Origin: Shinella lacus
GTDB taxonomy: Bacteria > Pseudomonadota > Alphaproteobacteria > Rhizobiales > Rhizobiaceae
Length of the DNA: 64,000 nt
Reading direction: 5' to 3'
Assembly: GCF_010994755.1 (NCBI RefSeq)
Contig: NZ_WHSB02000003.1
Location: 1 to 64,000, forward strand
The position numbers and the translations under genes were made by a program. Positions 28,145-40,721 of this stretch are shown here, piece after piece. How positions within the stretch are numbered: the stretch's first letter is position 1; each line of letters begins with the position of its first letter. The notes beneath the pieces are model-generated. The model made no database searches. It saw nothing but the letters and a program-made list of their open reading frames with translations, and had not been told where the DNA came from.

Positions 28145-28230
28145 CACCAGCCGCCGTCAATTGCAAAGTTCTGGCCGGATCATATCGGAGGTCGGCGAGA
28201 CAAGGAAATGTTCGCGTTCGGCCACGTCGA
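28144..28230 (-). pseudogene. 3' remnant of a short-chain dehydrogenase gene
   Basis: On the minus strand this stretch reads VDVAEREHFLVSPTSDMI and then, after a shift of frame at about 28177-28180, GQNFAIDGGW and a stop. These are the typical last ~30 residues of a short-chain dehydrogenase (FLVSP.SDMITGQNFAIDGGW), with two bases missing where the codon for Thr should be. The stop overlaps the epimerase start as TGATG. No matching dehydrogenase sequence is recognisable further upstream (28231-28378), so only the tail survives. It is read by eye and could be confirmed by comparison with a relative that has the intact gene. Confidence 0.6.
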
Positions 28231-28415
28231 CCCGCCGGAGGCGGGCCTTAGCGACTGGTTTTCGAGGATTGCTCGGCGATGACGTGCGCTTCCGTCTCTG
28301 AGACTACTGCGCTTTTCGCCCACTCATCCCCTGCTAATGCGAACCTGACGGCACCGAAATCCGCAGGTAATTTTACAAATGACAGACATAGATCATCTTT
28401 TGTCATTTCGATGTA
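28231..28415. other. Non-coding spacer without recognisable gene
   Basis: Together with the dehydrogenase remnant and the promoter this makes a 345-base stretch between intact genes. I see no convincing reading frame. The right end is AT-rich and carries the inverted repeat AAATGACA (28377-28384) and TGTCATTT (28401-28408), 16 bases apart, close to the promoter at 28416. Confidence 0.5.
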
Positions 28416-28444
28416 TTGACATATGTCGACGTAAGGGTGTTATT
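28416..28444 (+). promoter_or_regulatory. Promoter and palindrome upstream of the polyol/sugar ABC operon
   Basis: TTGACA at 28416-28421 and GTTATT at 28439-28444 are 17 bases apart, 45 bases before the ATPase gene. The perfect 10-base palindrome GACATATGTC (28418-28427) overlaps the -35. A further TTGTCAG lies at 28444-28450, and the TGTCATTT inverted repeat lies just upstream. Several TGTCA-like half sites in one place suggest a repressor site, with the SorC-DhaK fusion protein as the candidate regulator. Confidence 0.55.
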
Positions 28445-28489
28445 TGTCAGTACGCGATGGGAGTGTCGCGGGAATGCCGGGAGGGAAGC

Positions 28490-29968
28490 ATGCAGCCGCT
28501 CTTGAAGGTGGAAGGGCTAAAGAAGTCGTTTGGCGGCGTTGCGGCCCTGCGCGACGGCCGTTTCGAGCTAGCAGCCGGCTCGGTGCATGCGCTTTGCGGC
28601 GGCAACGGCGCCGGCAAGTCGACGTTTCTTTCGATCCTCATGGGCATCCACAAGCGCGATGGCGGCACGATCCTGCATCGCGGCAAGCCGGTGGAATTCG
28701 GCAGTCCGGCCGAGGCTCTGCGCTCCGGCATCGCCATTATCGAGCAGGAACTAAGCCCGGTTCCGCACATGACGGTGGCGGAAAACATCTATCTCGGCCG
28801 TGAACCCTCGGCCCGCTTTGGCGGCATCGATTTCAAGACGATGAACCGCAATGCGCAGGCGCTGCTGGACCGTCTCGAATTCAGCATTTCCGCACGCGAA
28901 TATATGATGAACCTCTCGGTCGCGCAGATGCAGCTCGTCGAGATCGCCAAGGCGCTGAGCCATGAGGCGGACGTCATCTTCATGGACGAGCCGACCTCGG
29001 CGATCGGCGAGAAGGAAGCCCAGCATCTCTTTTCGGCGATCCAGCGCCTGAAGGCAGACGGCAAGGGCATCGTCTATGTCTCGCACCGGCTGTCGGAAAT
29101 CTTCCAGATCGCTGACAGCTACACGGTCTTCCGCGACGGCGGCTTCGTTGGTGCCGGAAACCTGGCCGATATCGACCGGCGCGGCCTCATCCGCATGATC
29201 GTCGGCCGCGAACTGGGCGAGGAATATATCAAGACGAACACGCCGACCGAGATCGCCGGCCTCGAAGTCGCTGGGCTCTCGGCTCCTGGCAAGATCGAGG
29301 ATATTTCGTTCACCGCCCATAAGGGTGAGATCTTCGGCATCTATGGCCTGATGGGCTCCGGCCGCACGGAAATCTTCAATTGCCTCTTCGGCATGGACCG
29401 CCCGTCCGCCGGCGAAATCCGCCTCGACGGCCGTGCCGTGACCATCCGCCAGCCCGCCGACGCCATGGCCGAGGGCATCGCCTTCGTCACCGAGGACCGC
29501 AAGGTCACCGGCCTCAACCTCATCGACAGCGTGCGCAACAACATCTGCCTCGCCAGCCTGCCGGACATGAGCCCCAGCTTCGTCATGCAGAAGAGCCGCG
29601 AACAGGCGGCGAGCGCCGAGATGATCGAGCGTTTCGCCATCAAGGCCGCGCGCGACACCATGCCGGTCTCCGGCCTTTCGGGCGGCAACCAGCAGAAGGT
29701 GGTGCTCGGAAAATGGTTCCTGCGCCAGCCGCGCGTGCTGCTGCTCGACGAGCCGACTCGCGGCGTCGATGTCGGCGCCAAGCGCGAGATCTACCGCATC
29801 ATCTGCGACTTCGCGGCTGCCGGCGGCACGGTCGTGATGATCTCATCCGAAATCGACGAAATCCTGGGCATGTCCGACCGCATCCTCGTCATGCGGCAGG
29901 GACGCTCCGCCGGCATTCATGACCGGCAGGACACGGATGCCCAATCGCTCGTGCACCTGTCGACCTGA
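28490..29968 (+). CDS. Sugar/polyol ABC transporter ATP-binding protein, RbsA type
   Basis: A 492-residue ATPase with two nucleotide-binding domains. Domain 1 has Walker A GGNGAGKST, signature LSVAQMQ and Walker B VIFMDEPTSAI. Domain 2 has a degenerate Walker A (GLMGSGRTE) with LSGGNQQKV and LLLDEPTRGVD. The ATG at 28490 follows a GGGAGGGAAG ribosome site; the frame is open further upstream but overlaps the promoter. It is the first gene of a long operon: permease, binding protein, dehydrogenase and kinase subunits follow. Confidence 0.93.
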   Translation: MQPLLKVEGLKKSFGGVAALRDGRFELAAGSVHALCGGNGAGKSTFLSILMGIHKRDGGTILHRGKPVEFGSPAEALRSGIAIIEQELSPVPHMTVAENIYLGREPSARFGGIDFKTMNRNAQALLDRLEFSISAREYMMNLSVAQMQLVEIAKALSHEADVIFMDEPTSAIGEKEAQHLFSAIQRLKADGKGIVYVSHRLSEIFQIADSYTVFRDGGFVGAGNLADIDRRGLIRMIVGRELGEEYIKTNTPTEIAGLEVAGLSAPGKIEDISFTAHKGEIFGIYGLMGSGRTEIFNCLFGMDRPSAGEIRLDGRAVTIRQPADAMAEGIAFVTEDRKVTGLNLIDSVRNNICLASLPDMSPSFVMQKSREQAASAEMIERFAIKAARDTMPVSGLSGGNQQKVVLGKWFLRQPRVLLLDEPTRGVDVGAKREIYRIICDFAAAGGTVVMISSEIDEILGMSDRILVMRQGRSAGIHDRQDTDAQSLVHLST

Positions 29969-30022
29969 AGAGAGCTCGACGACGCCGCACGCATTGAACC
30001 CGCATGGCAAGAGGTGACACCC

Positions 30023-31027
30023 GTGTCCAGCATTGAGAACAAGTCGTCCAGCTCCTGGCTGAATTCCGATCGCCGCCGGCTGATCCTGCAGGAATACGGC
30101 ATCTTCCTCGCCTTCCTGCTGCTCGTCGGCATCCTGGCGCTCTCGAACGAATTCTTCCTGACGCCGGGCAACATTTCCAACGTGCTGCTCCAGACGTCGA
30201 TCAACGGCGTGCTCGCCATTGGCATGACCTTCGTGATCCTGACGCGTGGTATCGACCTGTCGGTCGGCTCGGTCGTGGCGCTGGCCGGCATGGTGAGTGC
30301 CAGCTTCGTCACCAGTTCGGCGACGGCCGGCATCGCCGGGGCGCCCTACCCGATGGTGGTGGCGCTGGCGGCCGGCATCCTCGTCGGCGTCTGCTGCGGC
30401 GCGCTGGTCGGCTTCATCGTTTCTCGCTTTTCCGTGCCGGCCTTCGTGGCGACGCTCGGCATGCTGTCAGCCGCCCGCGGCGCCACCCTCATCTATGGCG
30501 GCGGCAAGCCGGTGCCGGCGCTGTCGCCGGACTTCCGCTGGATCGGCACCGGCAACATCCTCGGCATTCCGATGCCGGTCATCCTGCTCGCTGTCGTGTT
30601 CGCCGGCTCCTGGTGGGTGCTGACCCGCACGCGCTTCGGACGATACATCTACGCCGTCGGCGGCAACCCGCATGCAGCCAAGACCTCCGGCCTCAACGTC
30701 ACGCGCATCCGCTTCCTCGTCTATGTCATCTCGGGTGCGCTGTCCGGCCTTGCCGGCATGATCCTCTCGGCGCGTACCGGCTCCGCCCTGCCGCAGGCCG
30801 GCATCGCCTACGAACTCGATGCGATCGCGGCGGTCGTCATCGGCGGCACCTCGCTTTCAGGCGGCGTCGGCCGGGTGACGGGCACGCTGATCGGCGCCCT
30901 CATCATCGGCGTCATGAACAACGGCCTCGATCTGATGGGTATCCAATCCTACTACCAGCAGGTCCTCAAGGGCGCCCTCATCGTCGGCGCCGTCATGCTC
31001 GACCAGAAGCGAAACCAGGGCGGCTAG
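30023..31027 (+). CDS. Sugar/polyol ABC transporter permease, RbsC type
   Basis: A 334-residue inner-membrane permease with about eight to ten helices. The family hallmark GIDLSVGSVVALAGM lies near residue 80 and GGTSLSGGVGRVTGT near 280. The GTG at 30023 is preferred to the GTG at 30014 because AGAGGTGA lies directly upstream at the right distance. It works with the ATPase before it and the binding protein after it. Confidence 0.92.
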   Translation: MSSIENKSSSSWLNSDRRRLILQEYGIFLAFLLLVGILALSNEFFLTPGNISNVLLQTSINGVLAIGMTFVILTRGIDLSVGSVVALAGMVSASFVTSSATAGIAGAPYPMVVALAAGILVGVCCGALVGFIVSRFSVPAFVATLGMLSAARGATLIYGGGKPVPALSPDFRWIGTGNILGIPMPVILLAVVFAGSWWVLTRTRFGRYIYAVGGNPHAAKTSGLNVTRIRFLVYVISGALSGLAGMILSARTGSALPQAGIAYELDAIAAVVIGGTSLSGGVGRVTGTLIGALIIGVMNNGLDLMGIQSYYQQVLKGALIVGAVMLDQKRNQGG

Positions 31028-31037
31028 CCCCCGAAAT

Positions 31038-31056
31038 ACGGGCGTCCTGCGCCCGT
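31038..31056 (+). promoter_or_regulatory. Short intercistronic stem-loop
   Basis: A 7-base-pair stem (ACGGGCG / CGCCCGT) with a 5-base loop lies ten bases after the permease stop and 53 bases before the binding-protein start. No T-run follows. It may mark an mRNA processing or stability boundary. Confidence 0.4.
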
Positions 31057-31108
31057 CATCGAAACGGTTTGCCAGACGGCAGCCGGAATCTCAAAGGAGG
31101 AGAATGTC

Positions 31109-32095
31109 ATGAAGAAACTGATGATTGCCCTTGCGTCCGCGACGGTGCTTTTCGCCTCGTCCGCGATCGCCCAGGAGAAGCTGAAGATCGGCGCGGCGCC
31201 CTATGGCCTCAACGCGGAATTCATGCAGATCTGGTCCGCTGCGCTGGAAGAGCACCCGGCCGTGAAAAGCGGCGAAGTCGAGCTCACCGTTTTCGACGGC
31301 CGCTATGATGCGCTGGTCCAGCAGGAACAGTTCAACACGATGATCACTCAGAAGTTCAACGCGATCATCTTCGTGCCGATCGACATCGAAGCCGGCGCTA
31401 CCGCCGTGCAGGCGGCCGCCGATGCCGGCATTCCGGTCGTCGGCTCCAACACCCGCGTGAACTCCGACCTGCTCGCCGCCTATGTCGGTTCCGACGACAC
31501 GATCTCCGGCTACATGGAAGCCAAGGCCGTGCTCGACAAGATCGGCTGCAAGGGCAACGTGGTCATCATCGAAGGCCCGATTGGCCAGTCGGCGCAGATC
31601 TCGCGCCTCGAAGGCAACCAGAAGGCGCTCGCCGAGTGCCCGGACGTGAAGGTGCTGGAACAGCAGACCGCCAACTGGTCGCGCGCTGAAGCCCAGACGC
31701 TGATGGAGAACTGGCTGACGTCCCATCCGGGCCAGATCAACGGCGTCATCGGCCAGAACGACGAGATGGCGCTCGGCGCGGTCGAGGCGATCAAGTCCGC
31801 CGGCCTGAAGACGAGCGACTTCGCCATTGCCGGCATCGATGGCATCACGGATGCGCTGACCGCCGTCAAGGAAGGCACGATCACCTCGATCCTGCAGGAT
31901 GCCCGCGCCCAGGCGCAGGGCGCCCTGGACCTCGCGATCCTTCATGCCAGGAAGGGCGACTACAAGCCGCAATCCGACATCTGGGCGCAGTATCCGGACA
32001 TGCCGTTCAACGACGGCAAGGACAAGGAGTACAATGTTCCGTGGACACCGGTCACGGCCGACAATGTCGATAAGCTCCTGGAAATGCGCAAGTAA
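31109..32095 (+). CDS. Sugar/polyol ABC transporter substrate-binding protein, RbsB type
   Basis: A 328-residue periplasmic binding protein of the RbsB/peripla_BP_4 type with a signal peptide ending SSAIA at residue 21. Typical segments are DAGIPVVGSNTRVN, EGPIGQSAQISRLEGN, IGQNDEMALGAVEAI and GIDGITDAL. The enzyme genes downstream (a dehydrogenase, then dihydroxyacetone-kinase-like subunits) suggest a short polyol such as a tetritol rather than ribose, but the ligand cannot be read from the sequence. AAAGGAGGA precedes the ATG. Confidence 0.92.
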   Translation: MKKLMIALASATVLFASSAIAQEKLKIGAAPYGLNAEFMQIWSAALEEHPAVKSGEVELTVFDGRYDALVQQEQFNTMITQKFNAIIFVPIDIEAGATAVQAAADAGIPVVGSNTRVNSDLLAAYVGSDDTISGYMEAKAVLDKIGCKGNVVIIEGPIGQSAQISRLEGNQKALAECPDVKVLEQQTANWSRAEAQTLMENWLTSHPGQINGVIGQNDEMALGAVEAIKSAGLKTSDFAIAGIDGITDALTAVKEGTITSILQDARAQAQGALDLAILHARKGDYKPQSDIWAQYPDMPFNDGKDKEYNVPWTPVTADNVDKLLEMRK

Positions 32096-32106
32096 TACAT
32101 GATCCG

Positions 32107-32127
32107 CGGGGCGGCCCTGCCGCCCCG
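32107..32127 (+). promoter_or_regulatory. Stem-loop after the binding-protein gene
   Basis: A 9-base-pair GC stem (CGGGGCGGC / GCCGCCCCG) with a 3-base loop is followed by TTTCT. It begins 12 bases after the binding-protein stop and 28 bases precede the dehydrogenase gene. It is a likely attenuator or mRNA-stability element. Confidence 0.6.
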
Positions 32128-32154
32128 TTTCTCCCGAACACGAAGGCTGGACCG

Positions 32155-32928
32155 ATGACCGATACCCCTCCCAAGATCGACCTCAACTTCCCGCTCGACG
32201 GCAAGGTCGCGCTCGTCACCGGCGGCGCCTCCGGCATCGGCGCGGCCATTGCCTCGGCTTTTGCGTCCAAAGGTGCAAAGGTTGCCGTGCTCGATATCAA
32301 TGCCGATATCGCGACGGCGAAGGCGGAAGAGCTTGGCGGCGCGGCAAAGCCCTTCGTCTGCGACGTGGCGGATGCCGCCTCCGTTCAGAAAGCCGTCGAC
32401 GATGTGGTCGCGGCCTTTGGCGGCATCGACATCGCGGTCAACAGCGCTGGCATCGTGGCGCTTGCCCCGGCGGAAGACCTGACGCTCGCCCAGTGGGACA
32501 AGACGATCGACATCAATTTGAAGGGCAGCTTCCTCGTCACGCAGGCGGTCGGCCGCCGCATGATCGCGGTCGGCAAGGGCGGCAAGATTGTCAATCTCGC
32601 CTCGCAGGCGGGCTCCGTCGCGATCGAGGAACACGTTGCCTATTGCGCCTCGAAGTTCGGCGTCATCGGCATGTCGAAGACGTTTGCCGCCGAATGGGGC
32701 AAACACGGCATCACCGTCAACACCATTTCGCCCACCATCGTGCTGACTGAACTCGGCAAGAAGGCCTGGGCCGGCGAGAAGGGCGAGGCCGCCAAGAAGC
32801 GCATCCCGACCGGCCGCTTCGCCTTCCCGGAAGAGATCGCCGCCGCCGCCGTGTTCCTGGCCTCGCCGGGCGCCGACATGATCAACGGCGCCGATCTCGT
32901 CATCGACGGCGGCTACACCATTCTGTGA
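32155..32928 (+). CDS. Short-chain dehydrogenase, probably polyol (tetritol-type) dehydrogenase
   Basis: A 257-residue classical SDR enzyme. The nucleotide motif TGGASGIG is at 22-29, NSAG near 96, and the catalytic set is Ser150, Tyr163 and Lys167 (YCASK). Asp47 after the second strand (VAVLDIN) suggests NAD rather than NADP. Context (transport genes before it, DhaK/DhaL kinase after it) fits oxidation of a short polyol to a ketose that is then phosphorylated. This arrangement is known for D-threitol and erythritol use, where erythrulose is the intermediate. Substrate identity is inference. Confidence 0.88.
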   Translation: MTDTPPKIDLNFPLDGKVALVTGGASGIGAAIASAFASKGAKVAVLDINADIATAKAEELGGAAKPFVCDVADAASVQKAVDDVVAAFGGIDIAVNSAGIVALAPAEDLTLAQWDKTIDINLKGSFLVTQAVGRRMIAVGKGGKIVNLASQAGSVAIEEHVAYCASKFGVIGMSKTFAAEWGKHGITVNTISPTIVLTELGKKAWAGEKGEAAKKRIPTGRFAFPEEIAAAAVFLASPGADMINGADLVIDGGYTIL

Positions 32929-32939
32929 GAGGACTTACC

Positions 32940-33932
32940 ATGCAGCGTTTCATCAATGATCCGGATCTGGTGGTCGAGGATACGGTCAAGGGTTTCGTCA
33001 AGGCCCATTCGGATATCGTGCGGCTGGCGGAAAACCCGCGCGTCGTGGTCGCAAAGGACGCCCCGTTTGCAGGCAAGGTGGGCGTGGTGACGGGAGGCGG
33101 CTCGGGCCATGAGCCGGCCTTCATCGGCTATACCGGCAAGAACATGCTCGATGCGGTCGCTGTCGGCGAGCTGTTCTCCTCGCCCACGGCCAAGAGCTTT
33201 CACGATGCCATCCGTGCGGCGGATGGCGGCAAGGGCGTTGTCGTTCTCTACGGCAACTATGCCGGCGACAATATGAACGTGAAGATGGCGACCAAGCTAG
33301 CTGCCAAGGACGGCATCGAGATCGCGACAGTCGTCGCCAATGACGACGTCTGCTCCGCACCGCTCGCCGAGCGCGAAAAACGCCGCGGCGTGGCGGGCGA
33401 AATCTTCATGTGGAAGATGGGCGGCGCCAAGGCCGCGACGGGCGCCAGCCTTGAGGAGGTGCGCGCCACCGCCCAGAAGGCGATCGACAATTGCCGCTCG
33501 ATCGGTGTCGGCCTCGGCCCCTGCACGCTGCCGGCCGTCGGCCATCCGAATTTCCAGATCGAGCCCGGCACGATGGAGGTCGGCATCGGCCATCACGGCG
33601 AACCGGGCGTGCGCGTCGAAAAGCTGAAGACGGCCGAAGAGGTAGCCAAGGACATGGTGAAGATCGTGCTCGACGATCACAACCTGCCCGAGGGCACCGA
33701 GGTTGCGGTCCTCGTCTCCGGCCTTGGCGCGACGCCGCTCAACGAACTCTACATCCTCAACGACACGATCGAGAGCGAGATTTCGGCTCGTGGCCTGAAA
33801 ATCCGCAAGACCTGGATCGGCAACTATTTCACCTCGCTGGAAATGGTCGGCGCGACGCTGACCGTGATGGCGCTCGACGACGACCTGAAAACGCTGCTCG
33901 ATGTCGAGACGCGTTGCACGATGATCCTGTGA
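32940..33932 (+). CDS. DhaK-type kinase subunit (dihydroxyacetone/tetrulose kinase)
   Basis: A 330-residue DAK1-domain protein, the substrate-binding subunit of a dihydroxyacetone-kinase-type enzyme. The residues that bind the ketose are present: His57 in GGGSGHEP, Asp110 in YAGDNMN and His219 in GHHGEPG, which forms the covalent hemiaminal with the substrate in E. coli DhaK. DhaL follows 14 bases later. No DhaM phosphotransferase subunit is nearby, so the pair probably uses ATP directly. Given the transporter and dehydrogenase upstream, erythrulose or another tetrulose is as likely a substrate as dihydroxyacetone. GAGAGGA precedes the ATG. Confidence 0.9.
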   Translation: MQRFINDPDLVVEDTVKGFVKAHSDIVRLAENPRVVVAKDAPFAGKVGVVTGGGSGHEPAFIGYTGKNMLDAVAVGELFSSPTAKSFHDAIRAADGGKGVVVLYGNYAGDNMNVKMATKLAAKDGIEIATVVANDDVCSAPLAEREKRRGVAGEIFMWKMGGAKAATGASLEEVRATAQKAIDNCRSIGVGLGPCTLPAVGHPNFQIEPGTMEVGIGHHGEPGVRVEKLKTAEEVAKDMVKIVLDDHNLPEGTEVAVLVSGLGATPLNELYILNDTIESEISARGLKIRKTWIGNYFTSLEMVGATLTVMALDDDLKTLLDVETRCTMIL

Positions 33933-33946
33933 CGGGAGGACACCTC

Positions 33947-34588
33947 ATGCAGACCTTCGACAATGCATCCTCTGGCGCCATCGTGCTGTCCATGGCCGAA
34001 CGGATCGTGGAAAACCGCGCCTATCTCAGCGAGATCGACGGCAAGATCGGCGATGGCGACCACGGCGTCAACATGGCCAAGGGTTTCGGCATGGCCGCCG
34101 AGCGGCTGAAGGGCAAGGACGTGGCGCTCGCCGAATCGCTCGACACACTTGGCACCGTGCTGATGACGGAAATCGGCGGCTCGATGGGTCCGCTCTACGG
34201 CGTCATGTTCACAGAGTTCGCCGAGACGATCCAGGGCACAGAAAAGATCGACGCCGCGGCCTACAGCAAGATGCTGCATGCCGGTCTCGCCGGCATCCAG
34301 GCGATCGGCTTCGCCAAGGTCGGCGACAAGACGCTGATCGACACCTTCGTGCCGGCCATCGAGGCCTTCGACAAGACAACAGCAGAGGGCAAATCCTTCG
34401 GCGAGGCGCTGGAGGCCCTGGTCGTCGCAGCGGAAACCGGCCGCGACTCGACGATAAACCTGGTTGCCAAGATCGGCCGCGCCAGCCGCCTTGGCGAGCG
34501 TTCGCTCGGCGTGCTCGATGCGGGAGCCACCTCCTGCGCGATCATCCTGAAGGAACTGTCCGACGGCGCGCGCGCGCGTCTCGCCTGA
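33947..34588 (+). CDS. DhaL-type kinase subunit
   Basis: A 213-residue DAK2-domain protein, the nucleotide-binding partner of the preceding DhaK. The Mg-ATP site IDGKIGDGDHGVNM (three Asp residues) is near residue 31, with GGSMGPLYG, GDKTLID and DAGATSCAII further along. The start at 33947 has a GGGAGGA ribosome site. A terminator-like hairpin follows at 34607, so this probably ends the first transcript. Confidence 0.9.
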   Translation: MQTFDNASSGAIVLSMAERIVENRAYLSEIDGKIGDGDHGVNMAKGFGMAAERLKGKDVALAESLDTLGTVLMTEIGGSMGPLYGVMFTEFAETIQGTEKIDAAAYSKMLHAGLAGIQAIGFAKVGDKTLIDTFVPAIEAFDKTTAEGKSFGEALEALVVAAETGRDSTINLVAKIGRASRLGERSLGVLDAGATSCAIILKELSDGARARLA

Positions 34589-34606
34589 GCAAAGGGTCCT
34601 CCCAGG

Positions 34607-34650
34607 ATGCGCGGCCCGTTTCCTCCCGGGCGGGCCGCGCGCCGCCTTTT
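34607..34650 (+). terminator. Terminator-like hairpin after the first DhaKL set
   Basis: A perfect 10-base-pair GC stem (GCGCGGCCCG / CGGGCCGCGC, 34607-34638) with a 12-base loop is followed, six bases later, by TTTTTT (34645-34650). The short gap between stem and T-run makes it somewhat imperfect. Confidence 0.6.
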
Positions 34651-34719
34651 TTCGATTCCGGTTGCAAACCGGCGGCGTTGCTCCCATGTTCGCCGCCAAA
34701 AGGGGGACCGGCGAAACCG

Positions 34720-36813
34720 ATGGCATTGAAGACTTCCTCGCCGCGCAAGGGCGGCATCGGCCGGGTGAACGGGCCGGAAGGCGTGGATTCGATCCCGCTG
34801 CGCTACGGCGACGACCCCTATGTCTGGGCCTGCTGGCTCTATTATGAAGACGGCATGACGCAGGGCGAGATTGCCGAGGCGATGGGCGTGTCGCGCGCCA
34901 CCGTCAACAGCTACCTCGCCGACGCCCGCGAAAAGGGCATCGTCAACATCTCGATCGAGCCCGCCCGGCTCGCCTCCCTCACCATCGCGCAGGAGCTCAA
35001 GCGCCATTTCGGCCTTTCCGACTGCCTCGTCGTGCCGAACGACGACGATTCTCGTCCGCTGATCGGCAGGCTGGGAGCGGCCGGTGCGCAGGCGCTCGCC
35101 AAGATGATCAAGTCCGGCGACACGCTCGCCGTCGCCTGGGGCCGCACCATCCTGTCGGTCGGCGAACATCTGGAGATGGGGCCTTTGCAGGACGTTACCG
35201 TCGTACAGGCGACGGGCGGTACGACTGCAAGCTTCGCCTATACGCCGGAACTCACCACGGCCGCCGTCGCCCGCGCGATTGCGGCGCGCTGCGTCAACAT
35301 CACGGCGCCCGCCGTCGTCGCCTCGGGCGAAATGCACCGCATGCTGCTCGCCGAGCCGCTGATCCGCGAACAGTTCGACACGCTCGCCCGCGCCAACCGC
35401 ATCGTCTTCGGCATCTCGTCGCTGCGCCCCAACTCGACGATCCACACCAGCGGCTTCTTCGAATCCGTGCCCCTGCAGCACTATCTCGCCAAGGGTGCCG
35501 CGGGCGTTCTCGCCGGGCGCTTCATCGACGAACGCGGCCGCCCCGTCGCCGGCCCCCTCGATGATCGTACGATCGGCATCTCGCTGGAAATGCTGCGTGG
35601 CATCGGCACCCGCGTCGCCGTCGCCGGCGGGTTCGACAAGGTGCCGGCCCTGCTCGCGGCCCTTCGCGGTGGTTACGTCAACGTGCTGGTGACGGACGCC
35701 GCCACGGGCGCTGGCATCCTGCGCGCCGATGGCGTGACGAGCCTCGACGGAAAACTCTCGCAACGCCAGAAGAGCGTACCGGTCGCCAACAGCTACCGCA
35801 GTCACGTCAAGAAATTTCTCAACAATCCCAACGATGTGGTCGAGGAAATGCTGGACGGCCTGATCGCCGCGCACAAGCCCTATCTGGAACCGGTCGCCGG
35901 CTCGCGCCGGGCGCTCGTCGCCCGCGACGGCCCGCGCCCCGGCAAGGTCGGCCTCGTCATCGGCGGCGGCGCGGGCCACGAACCCTGCTTTGTCGGCTAT
36001 GTCGGTAAGGGTCTCGCCGACGCGGTGGCGATCGGAAACATCTTCTCCTCGCCGCCGCCCGACCCGATCGTCAAATGCGCGGTCGCGGCCTCCGGTGGTG
36101 CCGGCGTGCTCTTCGTCTACGGCAACTATGCCGGCGATGTGATGAATTTCGAGATGGCCGCGGAGCTTGCCGAGGAACAAGGCATTCCCATCCGCACGGT
36201 TCTGACGACCGACGATATCGCCTCTTCGCCGGTCGAGGACAAGGAGGGACGCCGCGGCGTCGCCGGCAATTTCTTCGTCTTCAAGGTGGCGGGTGCGGCC
36301 TGCGACCGCGGCTTGACGCTCGACGAATGCGAGGCCGTCACCCGCAAGGCCAACGACCGCACCTTCACGGTGGGCGTAGCGCTCGAATCCTGCTCCATGC
36401 CGCAGACGCGGCGGCACAATTTCGAGATCGGCCCGGACGACATGGAGCTCGGCATGGGCATCCATGGCGAGCCAGGCGTCTCGCGCGAGCGCATCCGCAC
36501 GGCGGACGAGATCGTCGACACAATCATGGACAACATCTTCAAGGAGATGAAGGCCGAGTCTGGCGACCGCGTGGCGGTGCTGGTCAATTCCTTCGGTGCC
36601 ACGCCGCTGATGGAACTCTACATCCTGTTTCGCCGGGTGGAGCAGCGGCTTTCCGCCAAGAACATCACGATCGAGGCGAGCTGGGTGGGGCACTATTGCA
36701 CCTCGCTCGACATGGTCGGCGCCTCCATCTCGATCCTGCATCTCGACCGGCAGCTGACTGATCTCATGCACCACCCATGCCGGTCGTCGATCTTGACCGT
36801 CAACACGCCCTGA
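34720..36813 (+). CDS. SorC-type transcriptional regulator fused to a DhaK kinase subunit
   Basis: A 697-residue fusion. Residues 46-66 are a helix-turn-helix (MTQGEIAEAMGVSRATVNSY). Residues about 75-345 are a SorC/DeoR sugar-phosphate-binding domain (VAWGRTILSVGEHLE, VVQATGGTT, VFGISSLRPNS, VAVAGGFDKVPALLAAL). Residues about 358-697 are a complete DAK1 domain in which all substrate residues are kept: His420 in GGGAGHEP, Asp473 in YAGDVMN and His582 in GIHGEPG. It could therefore bind ketose covalently and act as a kinase with the DhaL encoded next. The start is the first ATG after AGGGGGA, at a long spacing; a TTG upstream or a GTG at 34768 is possible. It probably controls the polyol operon upstream. 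Confidence 0.9.
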   Translation: MALKTSSPRKGGIGRVNGPEGVDSIPLRYGDDPYVWACWLYYEDGMTQGEIAEAMGVSRATVNSYLADAREKGIVNISIEPARLASLTIAQELKRHFGLSDCLVVPNDDDSRPLIGRLGAAGAQALAKMIKSGDTLAVAWGRTILSVGEHLEMGPLQDVTVVQATGGTTASFAYTPELTTAAVARAIAARCVNITAPAVVASGEMHRMLLAEPLIREQFDTLARANRIVFGISSLRPNSTIHTSGFFESVPLQHYLAKGAAGVLAGRFIDERGRPVAGPLDDRTIGISLEMLRGIGTRVAVAGGFDKVPALLAALRGGYVNVLVTDAATGAGILRADGVTSLDGKLSQRQKSVPVANSYRSHVKKFLNNPNDVVEEMLDGLIAAHKPYLEPVAGSRRALVARDGPRPGKVGLVIGGGAGHEPCFVGYVGKGLADAVAIGNIFSSPPPDPIVKCAVAASGGAGVLFVYGNYAGDVMNFEMAAELAEEQGIPIRTVLTTDDIASSPVEDKEGRRGVAGNFFVFKVAGAACDRGLTLDECEAVTRKANDRTFTVGVALESCSMPQTRRHNFEIGPDDMELGMGIHGEPGVSRERIRTADEIVDTIMDNIFKEMKAESGDRVAVLVNSFGATPLMELYILFRRVEQRLSAKNITIEASWVGHYCTSLDMVGASISILHLDRQLTDLMHHPCRSSILTVNTP

Positions 36814-36834
36814 AATGCCTTAGTGGAGGAAGAC

Positions 36835-37470
36835 ATGTCGGAAAGCGCGGCGCGGGCTCTCGCCAGGATGTTCGGGCGCATGGCCGAGGCGATCGAGGCG
36901 GAGAAGGATCATCTTTCCGAGCTGGACGGTGCGATCGGCGACGGCGACCACGGTATCACCATGTCGCTCGGCTTCAAGGCGGTGAACAAGGCGCTCGCCG
37001 CGCTCGATCTCGACACGGCGAGCCCGTCCGAGGTGATGCAGACGGCCGCGACCGGTTTCCTCGATGCCGTCGGTGCCTCCACCGGCCCGCTCTACGCCAC
37101 CGGTTTGCGCCGCGCCGCGCAAGCGCTCGCCGGCCGCAAGGAACTCGACCTTGCCGCCTGCCGCGACATGCTGGCCGCCTTCTCCGAAGGCATCCGCGAT
37201 CGCGGCAAGGCGCAGCGCGGCGACAAGACCATGCTCGACGTCTGGCTGCCCGCGGCGGAGGCTGCTGCGACCGCGGTCGCCGATGGCCGGTCGAAACAGG
37301 ATTTCTGGAAAGCGGTGACGATCGCTGCCGACAATGGCGCGGCCGCGACTGCCACCATGGTCGCCACCAAGGGCCGCGCCGCCCGCGTGCGCGAGCGCTC
37401 GCTCGGTCATCTCGATCCTGGCGCCGCCTCCGCAGCCGCCCTCGTGCGGGCCATGGCAGAAACGCTTTAG
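36835..37470 (+). CDS. Second DhaL-type kinase subunit
   Basis: A 211-residue DAK2-domain protein. The Mg-ATP site LDGAIGDGDHGITM is intact, as are GASTGPLYATG, GDKTMLDVW and HLDPGAASAA. It lies 21 bases after the SorC-DhaK fusion with a GGAGGA site before the ATG, so the natural partner is the fused DhaK domain. It is clearly diverged from the first DhaL, which argues for an old duplication with separate roles rather than a recent copy. Confidence 0.9.
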   Translation: MSESAARALARMFGRMAEAIEAEKDHLSELDGAIGDGDHGITMSLGFKAVNKALAALDLDTASPSEVMQTAATGFLDAVGASTGPLYATGLRRAAQALAGRKELDLAACRDMLAAFSEGIRDRGKAQRGDKTMLDVWLPAAEAAATAVADGRSKQDFWKAVTIAADNGAAATATMVATKGRAARVRERSLGHLDPGAASAAALVRAMAETL

Positions 37471-37487
37471 CGCGCAAAACTTGGGGC

Positions 37488-37518
37488 TTGACCTTCCCAT
37501 GGGGGAAGGCGGCATCCT
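37488..37518 (+). promoter_or_regulatory. CueR-type copper promoter of copZ
   Basis: TTGACC (37488-37493) and CATCCT (37513-37518) are 19 bases apart, the long spacing typical of MerR-family promoters. The spacer carries the dyad ACCTTCCC-ATGG-GGGAAGG, the classic CueR box. CueR encoded at 40311 would activate it when it binds Cu(I). Confidence 0.85.
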
Positions 37519-37543
37519 GCTGGCCAAACATCAGGAGATACCC

Positions 37544-37750
37544 ATGGACAACAGCACCACCCTCGCCTTCACCGTCCCGGACATGACCTGCGGCCATTGC
37601 GCAAAGACCATCACCGGCGCGGTTATCGCCGCCTATCCGGGTGCCAAGGTCGATATCGACCTCGCCAGCAAGCGCGTTTCGATCGAAAATGCCGGTGACC
37701 GGGCCGCCGTCGCCTCCGTGATCGCGGCAGAAGGCTATTCGCCGGCCTGA
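37544..37750 (+). CDS. copZ: CopZ-like copper chaperone
   Basis: A 68-residue HMA-domain protein with the metal-binding motif MTCGHC (residues 14-19) and the ferredoxin-like beta-alpha-beta-beta-alpha-beta length of a copper chaperone. It would carry Cu(I) in the cytoplasm to CopA. CAGGAGA precedes the ATG. It has its own CueR promoter and lies 74 bases before the copA start. Confidence 0.9.
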
Positions 37751-37765
37751 GTGGCAAAAAGCCGC

Positions 37766-37796
37766 TTGACCTTGACATGATGGGAAGGTGCACGAT
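37766..37796 (+). promoter_or_regulatory. CueR-type copper promoter of copA
   Basis: TTGACC (37766-37771) is followed by a 19-base spacer and CACGAT (37791-37796). The dyad ACCTT...AAGGT (37769-37789) is the CueR box, less symmetric than the copZ one. This gives copA and cueR a second copper-controlled start. Confidence 0.75.
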
Positions 37797-37824
37797 CTAT
37801 CCGAAACAGGATGAAAGGTGCACC

Positions 37825-40314
37825 ATGCTCACCACCACACCGCCGGCAGACCGCCGGACCGTAAAACTCTCCATCTCCGACATGACCTGCGCGTCCTGTG
37901 TGCGCCGCGTCGAGAAGGCCATCGAAACGGTGCCGGGCGTCGCCGGCGCCGCCGTCAACCTCGCGACGGAAAAAGCCGACGTGACCTTCGACGGTGTGCC
38001 CGACGTGGCGGCCGTGGCGGAAGCGGTGCGCAAGGCGGGTTACGGCGTTACGGAAGAGGTCATTGAGTTCCCCGTCGACGGCATGACCTGTGCCTCCTGC
38101 ATCGGCCGGGTCGAAAAGGCGCTGAAAGCCGTGCCAGGCGTGATCGAGGCGACCGCCAACCTCGCGCAGGAACGTGCCCGCGTCCGCCTCGTCAAGGGTG
38201 CCGCAAGTTTCGAGGATCTTTCCGCTGCGATCGAACGCACCGGCTACAAGGCCATCCGCGAGACCGCCGCGACACCCGCCGAGGACGACCGCCGCGCGGC
38301 CGAGGCAAAAATCCTGCGGCGCGATCTGGTGATCGCCGCGCTGCTGACGGCGCCGCTTTTCGTGATGGAAATGGGCGCGCATGCCTTCCCGTCCTTCGGG
38401 CACTACATCCACGAGACGCTCGGCATGCAGACGAGCCGGATCATCCAGTTCATGCTGGCGACGCTGGTGCTGGCCGGTCCCGGCCTGCGCTTCTTCCGCA
38501 AGGGCATTCCGGCGCTCGCGCGGCTGGCGCCGGACATGAATTCTCTCGTCGTCATCGGCACGCTCGCCGCCTGGAGTTTCTCCACCGTCGCGACCTTCGC
38601 GCCGGGCCTGCTTCCGGGCGGCACGGCGAACGTCTATTTCGAGGCCGCCGCCGTCATCGTGACGCTCATCCTCGCCGGGCGCTACCTGGAGGCGCGCGCC
38701 AAGGGCCGCACCGGCGAAGCGATCCGCCATCTTGCCGGCCTGCGCGCCAAATCCGCCCGCGTGCTGCGCGCTGGAAAAGCGGAGGACGTGGCTCTCGAAA
38801 GCGTCGTGCCGGGCGATATCGTTTTGGTGCGTCCCGGCGAAAAGGTGCCGGTCGATGGTGAGGTGACGGAGGGCAGTTCCTATATCGACGAGTCGATGAT
38901 CACGGGTGAGCCGATGCCCGTCGCGCGCCAGGCCGGCGACCTCGTCACCGGCGGCACGGTCAACACGACCGGCTCGCTGACCTTCCGCGCCACCCGCGTC
39001 GGCGCAGACACGGTGCTCTCGCAGATTATCCGTATGGTGGAGGATGCGCAGGCGGCAAAGCTGCCGATCCAGGCGCTGGTGGATCGCGTCACGCAATGGT
39101 TCGTGCCGGCCGTCATCGCCGTCGCCCTCGTAACCTTCGGTCTCTGGCTGGTGTTCGGCCCGAGCCCGGCGCTCGCCCACGCCCTGGTCAATGCCGTCGC
39201 CGTGCTCATCATCGCCTGCCCCTGCGCCATGGGACTTGCGACGCCCACTTCCATCATTACCGGGACGGGCCGCGCGGCGGAACTCGGCGTTCTCTTCCGC
39301 CAGGGCACCGCGCTTCAGACGCTGGAAGGCACCGACATCGTCGCCGTCGACAAGACCGGCACGCTGACGCTCGGCCATCCGACGCTGACGGAGATCGTGC
39401 CGGCGGATGGCTTTGCGCGCGACGAGGTGCTGTCGCTGGTCGCTGCGGCGGAAGTGCATTCCGAGCACCCGATCGCCGCTGCCATCCATGAAGCGGCGGT
39501 CGCGGAGGGCATCGACTTACCGGCGGCAACCGGCTTCGTGGCGAGCTCCGGCCAGGGCATTTCGGCGGAGGTTTCCGGCCGCAGGGTGGAGGCAGGCTCC
39601 GTCGGCTTCATGCAGGCGCGCGGCCTCGATGTCTCGCCCTTCGCACGCCACGCCGACCGGCTCGCCGCCGAGGGTGCCTCGCCGCTCTATGCCGCCATCG
39701 ACGGCCGGCTGGCGGCGCTCTTTGCGGTCACCGATCCGGTGAAGCCGACAACGAAGGAGGCGATTGCCGCGCTGAAGGCGCTCGGGATTGAAGTGGCGAT
39801 GATCACCGGCGATAACCGCCGGACCGCCGAGGCCGTGGCGGAAAAGCTCGGTATCGACCGGGTGCTGGCGGAAGTGCTGCCGGATGGCAAGGTCGCGGCG
39901 GTGCGCGCGCTTTCGGCGGGCGGCGCGAAGAAGGTCGCCTTCGTCGGCGACGGCATCAACGACGCGCCGGCGCTTGCCGCGGCCGATACCGGTATCGCCA
40001 TCGGCACGGGCACGGATGTCGCCATCGAGAGCGCCGACGTGGTGCTGATGGCGGGCGACATGCGGGGCGTCGCCGTCGGCATCGCGCTGTCGCGGGCGAC
40101 GATGCGCAATATCCGCCAGAACCTGTTCTGGGCCTTCGGCTACAATGTCGCGCTGGTCCCGGTCGCTGCCGGCCTGCTCTATCCGGCCTTCGGCATCCAG
40201 CTTTCACCGGCGCTCGCGGCCGGCGCCATGGCGCTTTCCAGCGTGTTCGTGGTGTCGAACGCGCTGCGGCTCAAGCGTTTCCGTCTCGCATTCCGCAAGG
40301 GAGACCAGGCATGA
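37825..40314 (+). CDS. copA: Cu(I)-exporting P-type ATPase
   Basis: An 829-residue P1B-1-type ATPase in the inner membrane that pumps Cu(I) out of the cytoplasm. Two N-terminal HMA domains each have MTCASC (20-25 and 87-92). The transmembrane CPC motif is at 465-467. The phosphorylated Asp is Asp509 in DKTGT. The nucleotide domain has HSEHPIA, and the hinge is [10 protein letters not shown]. About eight membrane helices are visible. The ATG at 37825 lies after the CueR promoter. Its stop overlaps the cueR start (ATGA). Confidence 0.95.
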
Positions 40315-40721
40315 ATATCGGCGAAGCGGCGGAGGCGACGGGCGTCTCCGCCAAGATGATCCGGCACTACGAATCGATCGGCCTTATCCGTGAGGCCGGG
40401 CGTACCGGCGCCGGCTACCGCACCTATGGGCCGAAGGACCTTTCGACGCTCTCCTTCATTCGGCGGGCGCGCGACCTCGGCTTTTCCATCGCCCAGATCC
40501 GCGACCTGCTGGCGCTCTGGCAGGACCGCGCGCGCGCCTCCGGCGACGTGAAGCGCATCGCCAACCAGCATGTCGACGAGATGAAGGAAAAGATGCGCTT
40601 GCTGCAGGAGATGGTGCACACGCTGGAACACCTTTCGGCCCATTGCCACGGCGACGACCGGCCGGACTGTCCGATCCTCGAACAGTTGGCGAGCGGCAAG
40701 GCCGAGGAGGCGTGCTGCTAG
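40311..40721 (+). CDS. cueR: CueR-type Cu(I)-responsive MerR-family activator
   Basis: A 136-residue MerR-family regulator. The N-terminal winged helix reads [21 protein letters not shown], a dimerisation helix follows, and the Cu(I) ligands are Cys112 and Cys120 in CHGDDRPDC, the same positions and spacing as E. coli CueR. The tail carries an extra CC pair. It is translated from the end of copA and would activate both promoters at 37488 and 37766, giving positive feedback. Confidence 0.92.

Follow-up and report, generated by a model that had tools for sequence, protein, structure and literature searches.

In Lactococcus, the Dak1-fold protein DhaQ serves as an operon co-activator and works with a separate TetR-type protein, DhaS. 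An enzyme and a DNA-binding regulator are joined in one chain in the trigger enzymes NadR, BirA, and PutA, and the SorC-family regulators LsrR, DeoR, SorC, and CggR combine a helix-turn-helix (HTH) with a sugar-phosphate-binding domain. In E. coli, the kinase subunits DhaK and DhaL regulate transcription of the dihydroxyacetone kinase operon in trans via DhaR, as described in two papers (PMC5890353, PMC6643234), and a DhaR-DhaK structure is known (4lrx). Here, we analyzed a 64,000-nucleotide stretch of DNA from Shinella lacus (contig NZ_WHSB02000003.1, positions 1 to 64,000; referred to as the window throughout this paper), in which one gene (34720..36813, plus strand) encodes a SorC-type regulator fused to a complete DhaK subunit. 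A preliminary description, made from the sequence of the window, had proposed that this protein captures a ketose, phosphorylates it with a neighboring DhaL, and sets gene expression. The comparison with relatives revealed four features that are new: a conserved palindrome, a constant DhaL neighbor, a residue pattern of DhaK rather than DhaQ in the kinase half, and the usual presence of a second DhaK.

The suspicion in the preliminary description that the fusion may already be named in databases proved correct. The NCBI entry "bifunctional sugar-binding transcriptional regulator/dihydroxyacetone kinase subunit DhaK" has the same architecture, gene order, and neighbors, but it is a product name only; in the open-access literature searched, with subscription papers mostly outside it, no study, mechanism, operator, or effector was found for the fusion. 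Already known, then, are the name of the fused architecture, the trans regulation by DhaK and DhaL, and the co-activator DhaQ. As with DhaR and its two partners, DhaK-family and DhaL proteins would control a dihydroxyacetone kinase operon here; in E. coli, however, the regulator is a separate protein on which the kinase subunits act in trans, with phosphate coming from phosphoenolpyruvate (PEP) via DhaM, whereas the fusion carries DhaK and a SorC regulator in one chain. DhaQ shares its fold and substrate residues with the kinase half, and its structures (2iu4, 2iu6) match our model, but eight of nine DhaQ-family sequences lack the DhaK residues that the fusions keep. The trigger enzymes differ in their folds and substrates, and the enzyme half of the fusion would need a second subunit, DhaL.

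The Pfam search confirmed the reading of the preliminary description that a SorC-type region and a full DAK1 domain share one chain: the 697-aa open frame, which contains no internal stop, joins an HTH, a SorC domain, a linker, and a complete Dak1 domain. The HTH (aa 40-75, 34837..34944, plus strand, as are all features below unless stated otherwise) was found by Pfam HTH-type matches, and 13 invariant residues lie within block 26-80 in an alignment of 53 fusion rows. It is followed by the SorC sugar-phosphate-binding domain (aa 86-334, 34975..35721; Sugar-bind PF04198, 201 bits, cut-off 27), and the presence of both an N-terminal HTH and PF04198 places this half in the SorC family. LsrR and DeoR are the nearest solved SorC-family structures by sequence, and K307, invariant in the 53 fusions, aligns with a lysine in LsrR, DeoR, and SorC. 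The Dak1 domain (aa 380-689, 35857..36786) matches PF02733 with 393.2 bits (cut-off 31.4) over profile positions 2-311 of 313, and its residues His420, Asp473, and His582 correspond to H56, D109, and H218 of E. coli DhaK. The AlphaFold2 model, built from an alignment of 50 fusions, consists of three folded modules (mean pLDDT 80.9, pTM 0.52), with pLDDT below 50 at aa 1-30, 75-80, and 343-361, the last being the disordered linker (35746..35802). From A336 to K364 the linker region measures 24-35 residues, and residues 337-361 contain no invariant position in the 53 rows. Foldseek matched the kinase half to E. coli DhaK, including its complexes with DhaL and DhaR, and to DhaQ, and the regulator half to DeoR, LsrR, and SorC; none among the structure matches listed joins a SorC domain to Dak1. 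An 837-aa open frame antisense to the fusion (34261-36774, minus strand) was interpreted as a shadow of the GC-rich coding sequence and not as a gene.

After removal of duplicates, 73 distinct full-length fusions, including that of the window, were gathered from plasmids (four records), genome contigs (the best 80 of more), and samples at the levels of order, class, and phylum; this sample is non-random and includes several close kin. In addition, in each of 102 plasmid records a single place matches 80% or more of the protein, with 94.4% identity over the whole length in the best case. The preliminary description had named a frameshift or an assembly error between the two halves as the danger to its reading. 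Such an artefact is ruled out by these relatives, some of which lie on complete plasmids, and nothing was found in its support; we regard it as extremely improbable.

Whether the kinase half can act as a kinase is not answered by its substrate residues. The preliminary description had concluded from the three residues that the DAK1 domain is not an obvious dead domain. They are indeed kept, in all 73 fusions and in all 119 stand-alone DhaKs, but also in 9/9 sequences over the DhaQ cut-off and in the three sequences just below it; since DhaQ-family sequences keep them, they are non-diagnostic as proof of kinase activity and indicate ketose binding at most. More informative are 12 positions that are kept by DhaK and lost in DhaQ over the cut-off, of which the fusions keep 8-12 (mean 10.6), the 119 stand-alone DhaKs 7-12 (mean 11.5), and eight of the nine DhaQs 0-2, the ninth (L192) keeping 8. 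With 15 positions drawn from 36 DhaKs of other loci, the fusions keep 10-14, the same eight DhaQs 0-2, and L192 14. Another set was derived from four DhaQs taken as strong, with the five others over the cut-off placed among the marginal sequences, although one of these five scores above the lowest of the four. In this set the DhaK residue is found in the window fusion at 17 of 17 positions; at other positions of the four-DhaQ test, 21 in number, the fusions keep 13-18 and the "marginal" sequences 7-21. With all nine DhaQs included, the outcome agrees with that based on four, the DhaK-like L192 being the single exception. Thus, the claim that the domain is not dead finds support in the DhaK-like diagnostic positions and not in the argument from three residues.

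The profile scores are less decisive. The fusion stays far from the cut-off of the DhaQ co-activator family TIGR02362 (199.7 vs 413.25). Several points weigh against a kinase-competent half: the fusion also misses the cut-off of the DhaK equivalog TIGR02363 (382.1 vs 406.25), as does the operon's stand-alone DhaK, DhaK1 (353.7); the fusions lie slightly below stand-alone DhaK in the 12-position set; and the three sequences just below the DhaQ cut-off, like L192, resemble DhaK at diagnostic positions, so the cut-off separates the two families imperfectly. Moreover, the fusions are related more closely to DhaK than to DhaQ, and by this sequence relationship shared ancestry explains part of the pattern. 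The nearest non-fused relatives of the DhaK half are mostly stand-alone DhaK genes adjoining DhaL. Together with three fusions that have no stand-alone DhaK beside them, this suggests that the lineage of the DhaK half is able to serve as a kinase. In the resulting picture, the DhaK half of the fusion looks kinase-competent, and most clusters hold another DhaK besides it.

The partner required for such activity is near in every fusion collected. A DhaL gene lies on the same strand within 400 bp of the fusion in 73/73 cases, and to the question raised at the outset, whether DhaL always follows, the answer is that it is always adjacent but downstream in 57 and upstream in 16. In the window, this gene (dhaL2, 36835..37470; TIGR02365, 178.9 bits, cut-off 138.3; conserved residues present) starts with an ATG at 36835, 21 bp past the fusion stop as first described, with a GTG at 36823 as an alternative start. 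Partner DhaLs keep D30, D35, D37, H38, D132, R178, and R185 (E. coli numbering) in 73/73. On the other side of the balance, N41 is changed to T/S, L72 to F, and G78 to A in 73/73, and G85 to A in 71, at positions that are invariant in E. coli DhaL and in DhaL1, the product of the operon's first dhaL; judged from these replacements, the partner may not be an ordinary DhaL. A stand-alone DhaK was present in the stretch examined for 65 of the 73 fusions, plus the window. The other eight comprise the window's own fusion, which has one, four cases in which the stretch of about 5 kb is too short to tell, and three absences (L143, L144, and L092) in 14-20 kb examined; these three fusions adjoin ABC importer genes with an SBP_bac_1 binding protein. 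The second DhaK also counts against a catalytic role, as it means that catalysis by the fusion is unneeded for flux in most clusters. The window's operon holds a second DhaK-DhaL pair (about 32940-34588), which means that the fusion does not have to do the bulk of the phosphorylation.

These observations can also be accommodated by a DhaQ-like sensor, in which the DhaK half would bind the ketose covalently without turnover in the cell and its occupancy would directly change DNA binding; DhaL2 might feed in a further regulatory signal, as happens with E. coli DhaR, and the SorC pocket would be structural or weak. Binding without catalysis is made conceivable by the DhaQ-family sequences that keep all three substrate residues, and the stand-alone DhaK near most fusions and the altered positions of the partner DhaL fit as well; in E. 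coli, DhaR is regulated through the binding of DhaK and of DhaL (PMC5890353). Yet the fusions keep the DhaK residues that eight of nine DhaQs have lost, the conserved aspartates and arginines of the partner DhaL are intact in 73/73, and three clusters have no other DhaK in the stretch examined. We consider this explanation rather unlikely.

The proposed role in setting gene expression is supported by a conserved palindrome that appears to tie the fusion to control of its own cluster. The consensus TTGACAWWTGTCRA was read from 20 regions upstream of importer genes, and a predicted operator, TTGACATATGTCGA (28416..28429), lies ahead of the operon of the window, the motif being shared with the fusion clusters of relatives. 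TTGACAWWTGTCRA occurs once in the window, at 28416; sites of at least 13/14 were found in 0 of 20 window shuffles, and in the 7.04-Mb genome a match with at most one mismatch occurs only at 28416. Sites of at least 13/14 numbered 0 in 72 control loci (522 kb) and 30 in 40 fusion loci (627 kb, including the loci used to read the motif). Of 20 set-aside loci, 9 reach 13 and 17 reach 12, whereas with 120 permuted palindromes these counts never exceed 1 and 10; among the set-aside loci, L097 overlaps L163, one of the 20 motif-reading regions, in another part of the same cluster, L164-L166 are one cluster type, and L147 was counted as a miss because its 13/14 site, 84 bp ahead of a broken fusion, falls outside the scored span. 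The set-aside sites precede differing genes, namely the fusion itself, DhaK1, a short-chain dehydrogenase (SDR), or another importer, and in the L164-L166 clusters the same palindrome stands at the far end.

Of 26 sites (the window plus relatives, 17 of the 26 coming from regions used to read the motif), 17 have a second copy of at least 11/14 exactly 21 bp downstream, and any other tested offset was seen at most twice. In the window, this copy (28437..28450) matches at 10/14 positions, counted by eye. Two sites two helical turns apart would suit a SorC tetramer, and for the whole chain we expect such a tetramer to carry two DhaK dimers. The pair covers a -35-like TTGACA, within the first site, and the region where a -10 would lie, from which repression is suggested. 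Some results count against this view of the palindrome. The +21 copy of the window is degenerate; a score of 12 is weak evidence, as the control loci (522 kb) contain 17 such sites; three of the 20 set-aside loci have no site of at least 12; and no consensus sigma-70 promoter passed a scan of 28148-38000, so that it is the site geometry which argues for repression.

From the domain anatomy, the constant DhaL neighbor, the DhaK-like residues, and the palindrome, we infer a regulator that is specific to its operon and probably represses it. Its kinase half would bind a ketose and, with DhaL2, probably phosphorylate it, and its SorC half would sense the product; we give this reading an even chance of being right. 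The HTH of the fusion would bind the two TTGACAWWTGTCRA palindromes, which lie 21 bp apart in the promoter (28416-28450) of an operon for ketose or polyol uptake, and probably repress this operon. Dihydroxyacetone, erythrulose, or a similar ketose would be captured by the DhaK half on His582 and probably phosphorylated with the help of the neighbor-encoded DhaL2 and ATP; the SorC half would sense the resulting ketose phosphate and release from, or rearrange on, the DNA. Under this division of labor, the DhaK1-DhaL1 pair would carry the metabolic flux, and the fusion-DhaL2 pair would be a reporting kinase. The PEP-dependent (PTS) DhaKLM type does not apply, as DhaM (TIGR02364) gave 0 matches in the source genome (controls were positive in 3/14, including E. 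coli and L. lactis); the absence of DhaM points to ATP as the phosphate donor. Product sensing by itself would be poorly informative in the case of dihydroxyacetone phosphate, because this compound is common in central metabolism; this consideration favors a rarer ketose such as erythrulose or substrate sensing by the DhaK half. The dehydrogenase encoded in the operon belongs to a family whose name includes the D-threitol enzyme DthD, which we offer beside erythrulose as a pointer to such a rarer ketose. In its full form, the proposal would be a self-reporting kinase: covalent ketose capture and phosphorylation with a dedicated DhaL would hand the product to the protein's own promoter-bound sugar-phosphate receptor, so that the operon would be induced by flux through its own catalysis, while an ordinary DhaK-DhaL pair does the bulk work. 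We put this forward as a tentative possibility. The interpretation in the preliminary description thus stands in part: the kinase-competent look, the DhaL, and the palindrome speak for it, whereas its residue argument did not hold and it had overlooked the second DhaK-DhaL pair.

The fused architecture is kept in many alphaproteobacteria, with identity down to 54%. Among 397 genomes of the same order, an unbroken full-length fusion was found in 22, the source genome included; one further fusion was broken by stops and one was split between contigs. A match from this survey (G286) covers query residues 269-697 with three internal stops. In the class sample (385 genomes), a match at the chosen threshold occurred in the source genome only, and in the phylum sample (398 genomes) the full fusion occurred in five, the source genome included, two of which belong to another family of the same class. 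In 398 Bacillota genomes, SorC and DhaK matches were separate and common, and none among the matches listed spans both, which is informative since a full-length fusion should rank first. The fusion on a plasmid of Shinella sp. H4-D48 is 91.5% identical over residues 1-695, and the best 80 matches of the contig scan include named species of Rhizobium, Ensifer, Mesorhizobium, Brucella/Ochrobactrum, Labrys, Rhodobium, Aureimonas, Salipiger, and Tropicimonas. Candidates outside this group were rejected: in L198 (Bacillota), a SorC gene in an unusually long frame, the SorC protein ends the upstream open frame and no kinase domain was seen by eye, and the Anaerolineales DhaK loci L111 and L117, whose matches start before the DhaK half, gave no SorC match.

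The DhaK halves of the fusions form a lineage apart from DhaK1. In a tree of 102 of 205 sequences (39 of the 73 fusions, thinned at 86% identity), 36 fusions form one supported group, while those of L035, L044, and L092 group with nine non-fused DhaKs, one of which is the DhaK piece of a broken fusion (L046). The label fused or non-fused requires two changes on this tree, and by its topology a single origin with later loss of SorC and two origins would both fit. In two relatives (L167:3048-5792, L168:6129-8864), a separate SorC gene lies directly upstream of DhaK and DhaL, in line with stops between (with one DhaKL frame in L167); this arrangement is the unfused counterpart of the fusion. Elsewhere in the source genome, a single open frame on contig C50 (L001, L013, L133) encodes both DhaK and DhaL, and a SorC gene in convergent orientation adjoins it.

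In an alternative account, regulator and kinase subunit would sit on one polypeptide merely to secure co-expression and stoichiometry, no signal would pass between the halves, and the SorC half alone would read a ketose phosphate. SorC genes adjoining DhaK genes in line or in convergent orientation are in keeping with it, as is the disordered, unconserved linker. The persistence of the fused form in so many alphaproteobacteria, although unfused SorC and DhaK are common elsewhere, argues the other way, and we judge a fusion of this plain kind unlikely. Other clusters differ in their surroundings. In the second cluster type (L164, L165, L166), ABC importer genes and a stand-alone DhaK-DhaL pair precede the fusion, and L165 also carries a PfkB-type kinase. 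DUF1537-type kinases were seen near the L143 fusion (L143:14836-16119, SBD_N/NBD_C by Pfam) and near a stand-alone relative (L048:2625-3959, by eye), hinting at pathways of four-carbon or branched sugar acids.

The operon of the window begins with an ABC importer, consisting of an RbsA-like ATP-binding protein (28490..29968, from Pfam and NCBIfam matches of the frame 28379-29968), a permease (30014..31027, Pfam BPD_transp_2), and a periplasmic substrate-binding protein (31109..32095, Pfam Peripla_BP_4). These are followed by a short-chain dehydrogenase of the GolD/DthD family (32155..32928; NF005309, 409.8 bits, cut-off 286), DhaK1 (32940..33932; Pfam Dak1, 374.8 bits), and the adjoining DhaL1 (33947..34588; Pfam Dak2, 176.8 bits; TIGR02365, 169.9 bits, cut-off 138.3), and then by the fusion and DhaL2. 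A terminator-like hairpin (34608..34647) lies between dhaL1 and the fusion, one of seven such sites in the stretch (mean in shuffles 6.2). A conserved attenuator in this gap is not claimed, a hairpin of at most -10 kcal/mol with a T-run being present in 16 of 41 distinct gaps. The order importer, SDR, DhaK, DhaL, fusion, DhaL is annotated alike in Shinella sp. H4-D48 and HZN7, in both cases on plasmids, and recurs on a Pararhizobium qamdonense plasmid, where the binding-protein gene is unannotated and matches in two pieces; Sinorhizobium meliloti 1021 has the DhaK-DhaL-fusion-DhaL block without importer and dehydrogenase in front. In this strain the fusion gene is on pSymB (NC_003078.1, 312530-314614), and an operator is predicted at L020:8030. 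The source genome totals six Dak1, seven SorC, and six Dak2 matches, and only the fusion of the window has SorC and Dak1 in one chain. Directly past the operon (37600-40721), translations read by eye suggest a copper efflux set: a small protein with an HMA domain, a P-type ATPase resembling CopA (37777/37825-40314), and a regulator of the MerR/CueR type (40311-40721).

Moonlighting of the DhaK family in transcription control is known in trans; here, regulator and kinase subunit form one chain, whose two halves have been retained together with the DhaL partner across a broad set of alphaproteobacteria. The predicted operator at a single genomic place makes it directly testable, also in the laboratory strain S. 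meliloti 1021, whether induction would come from the substrate, the product, or the act of phosphorylation.

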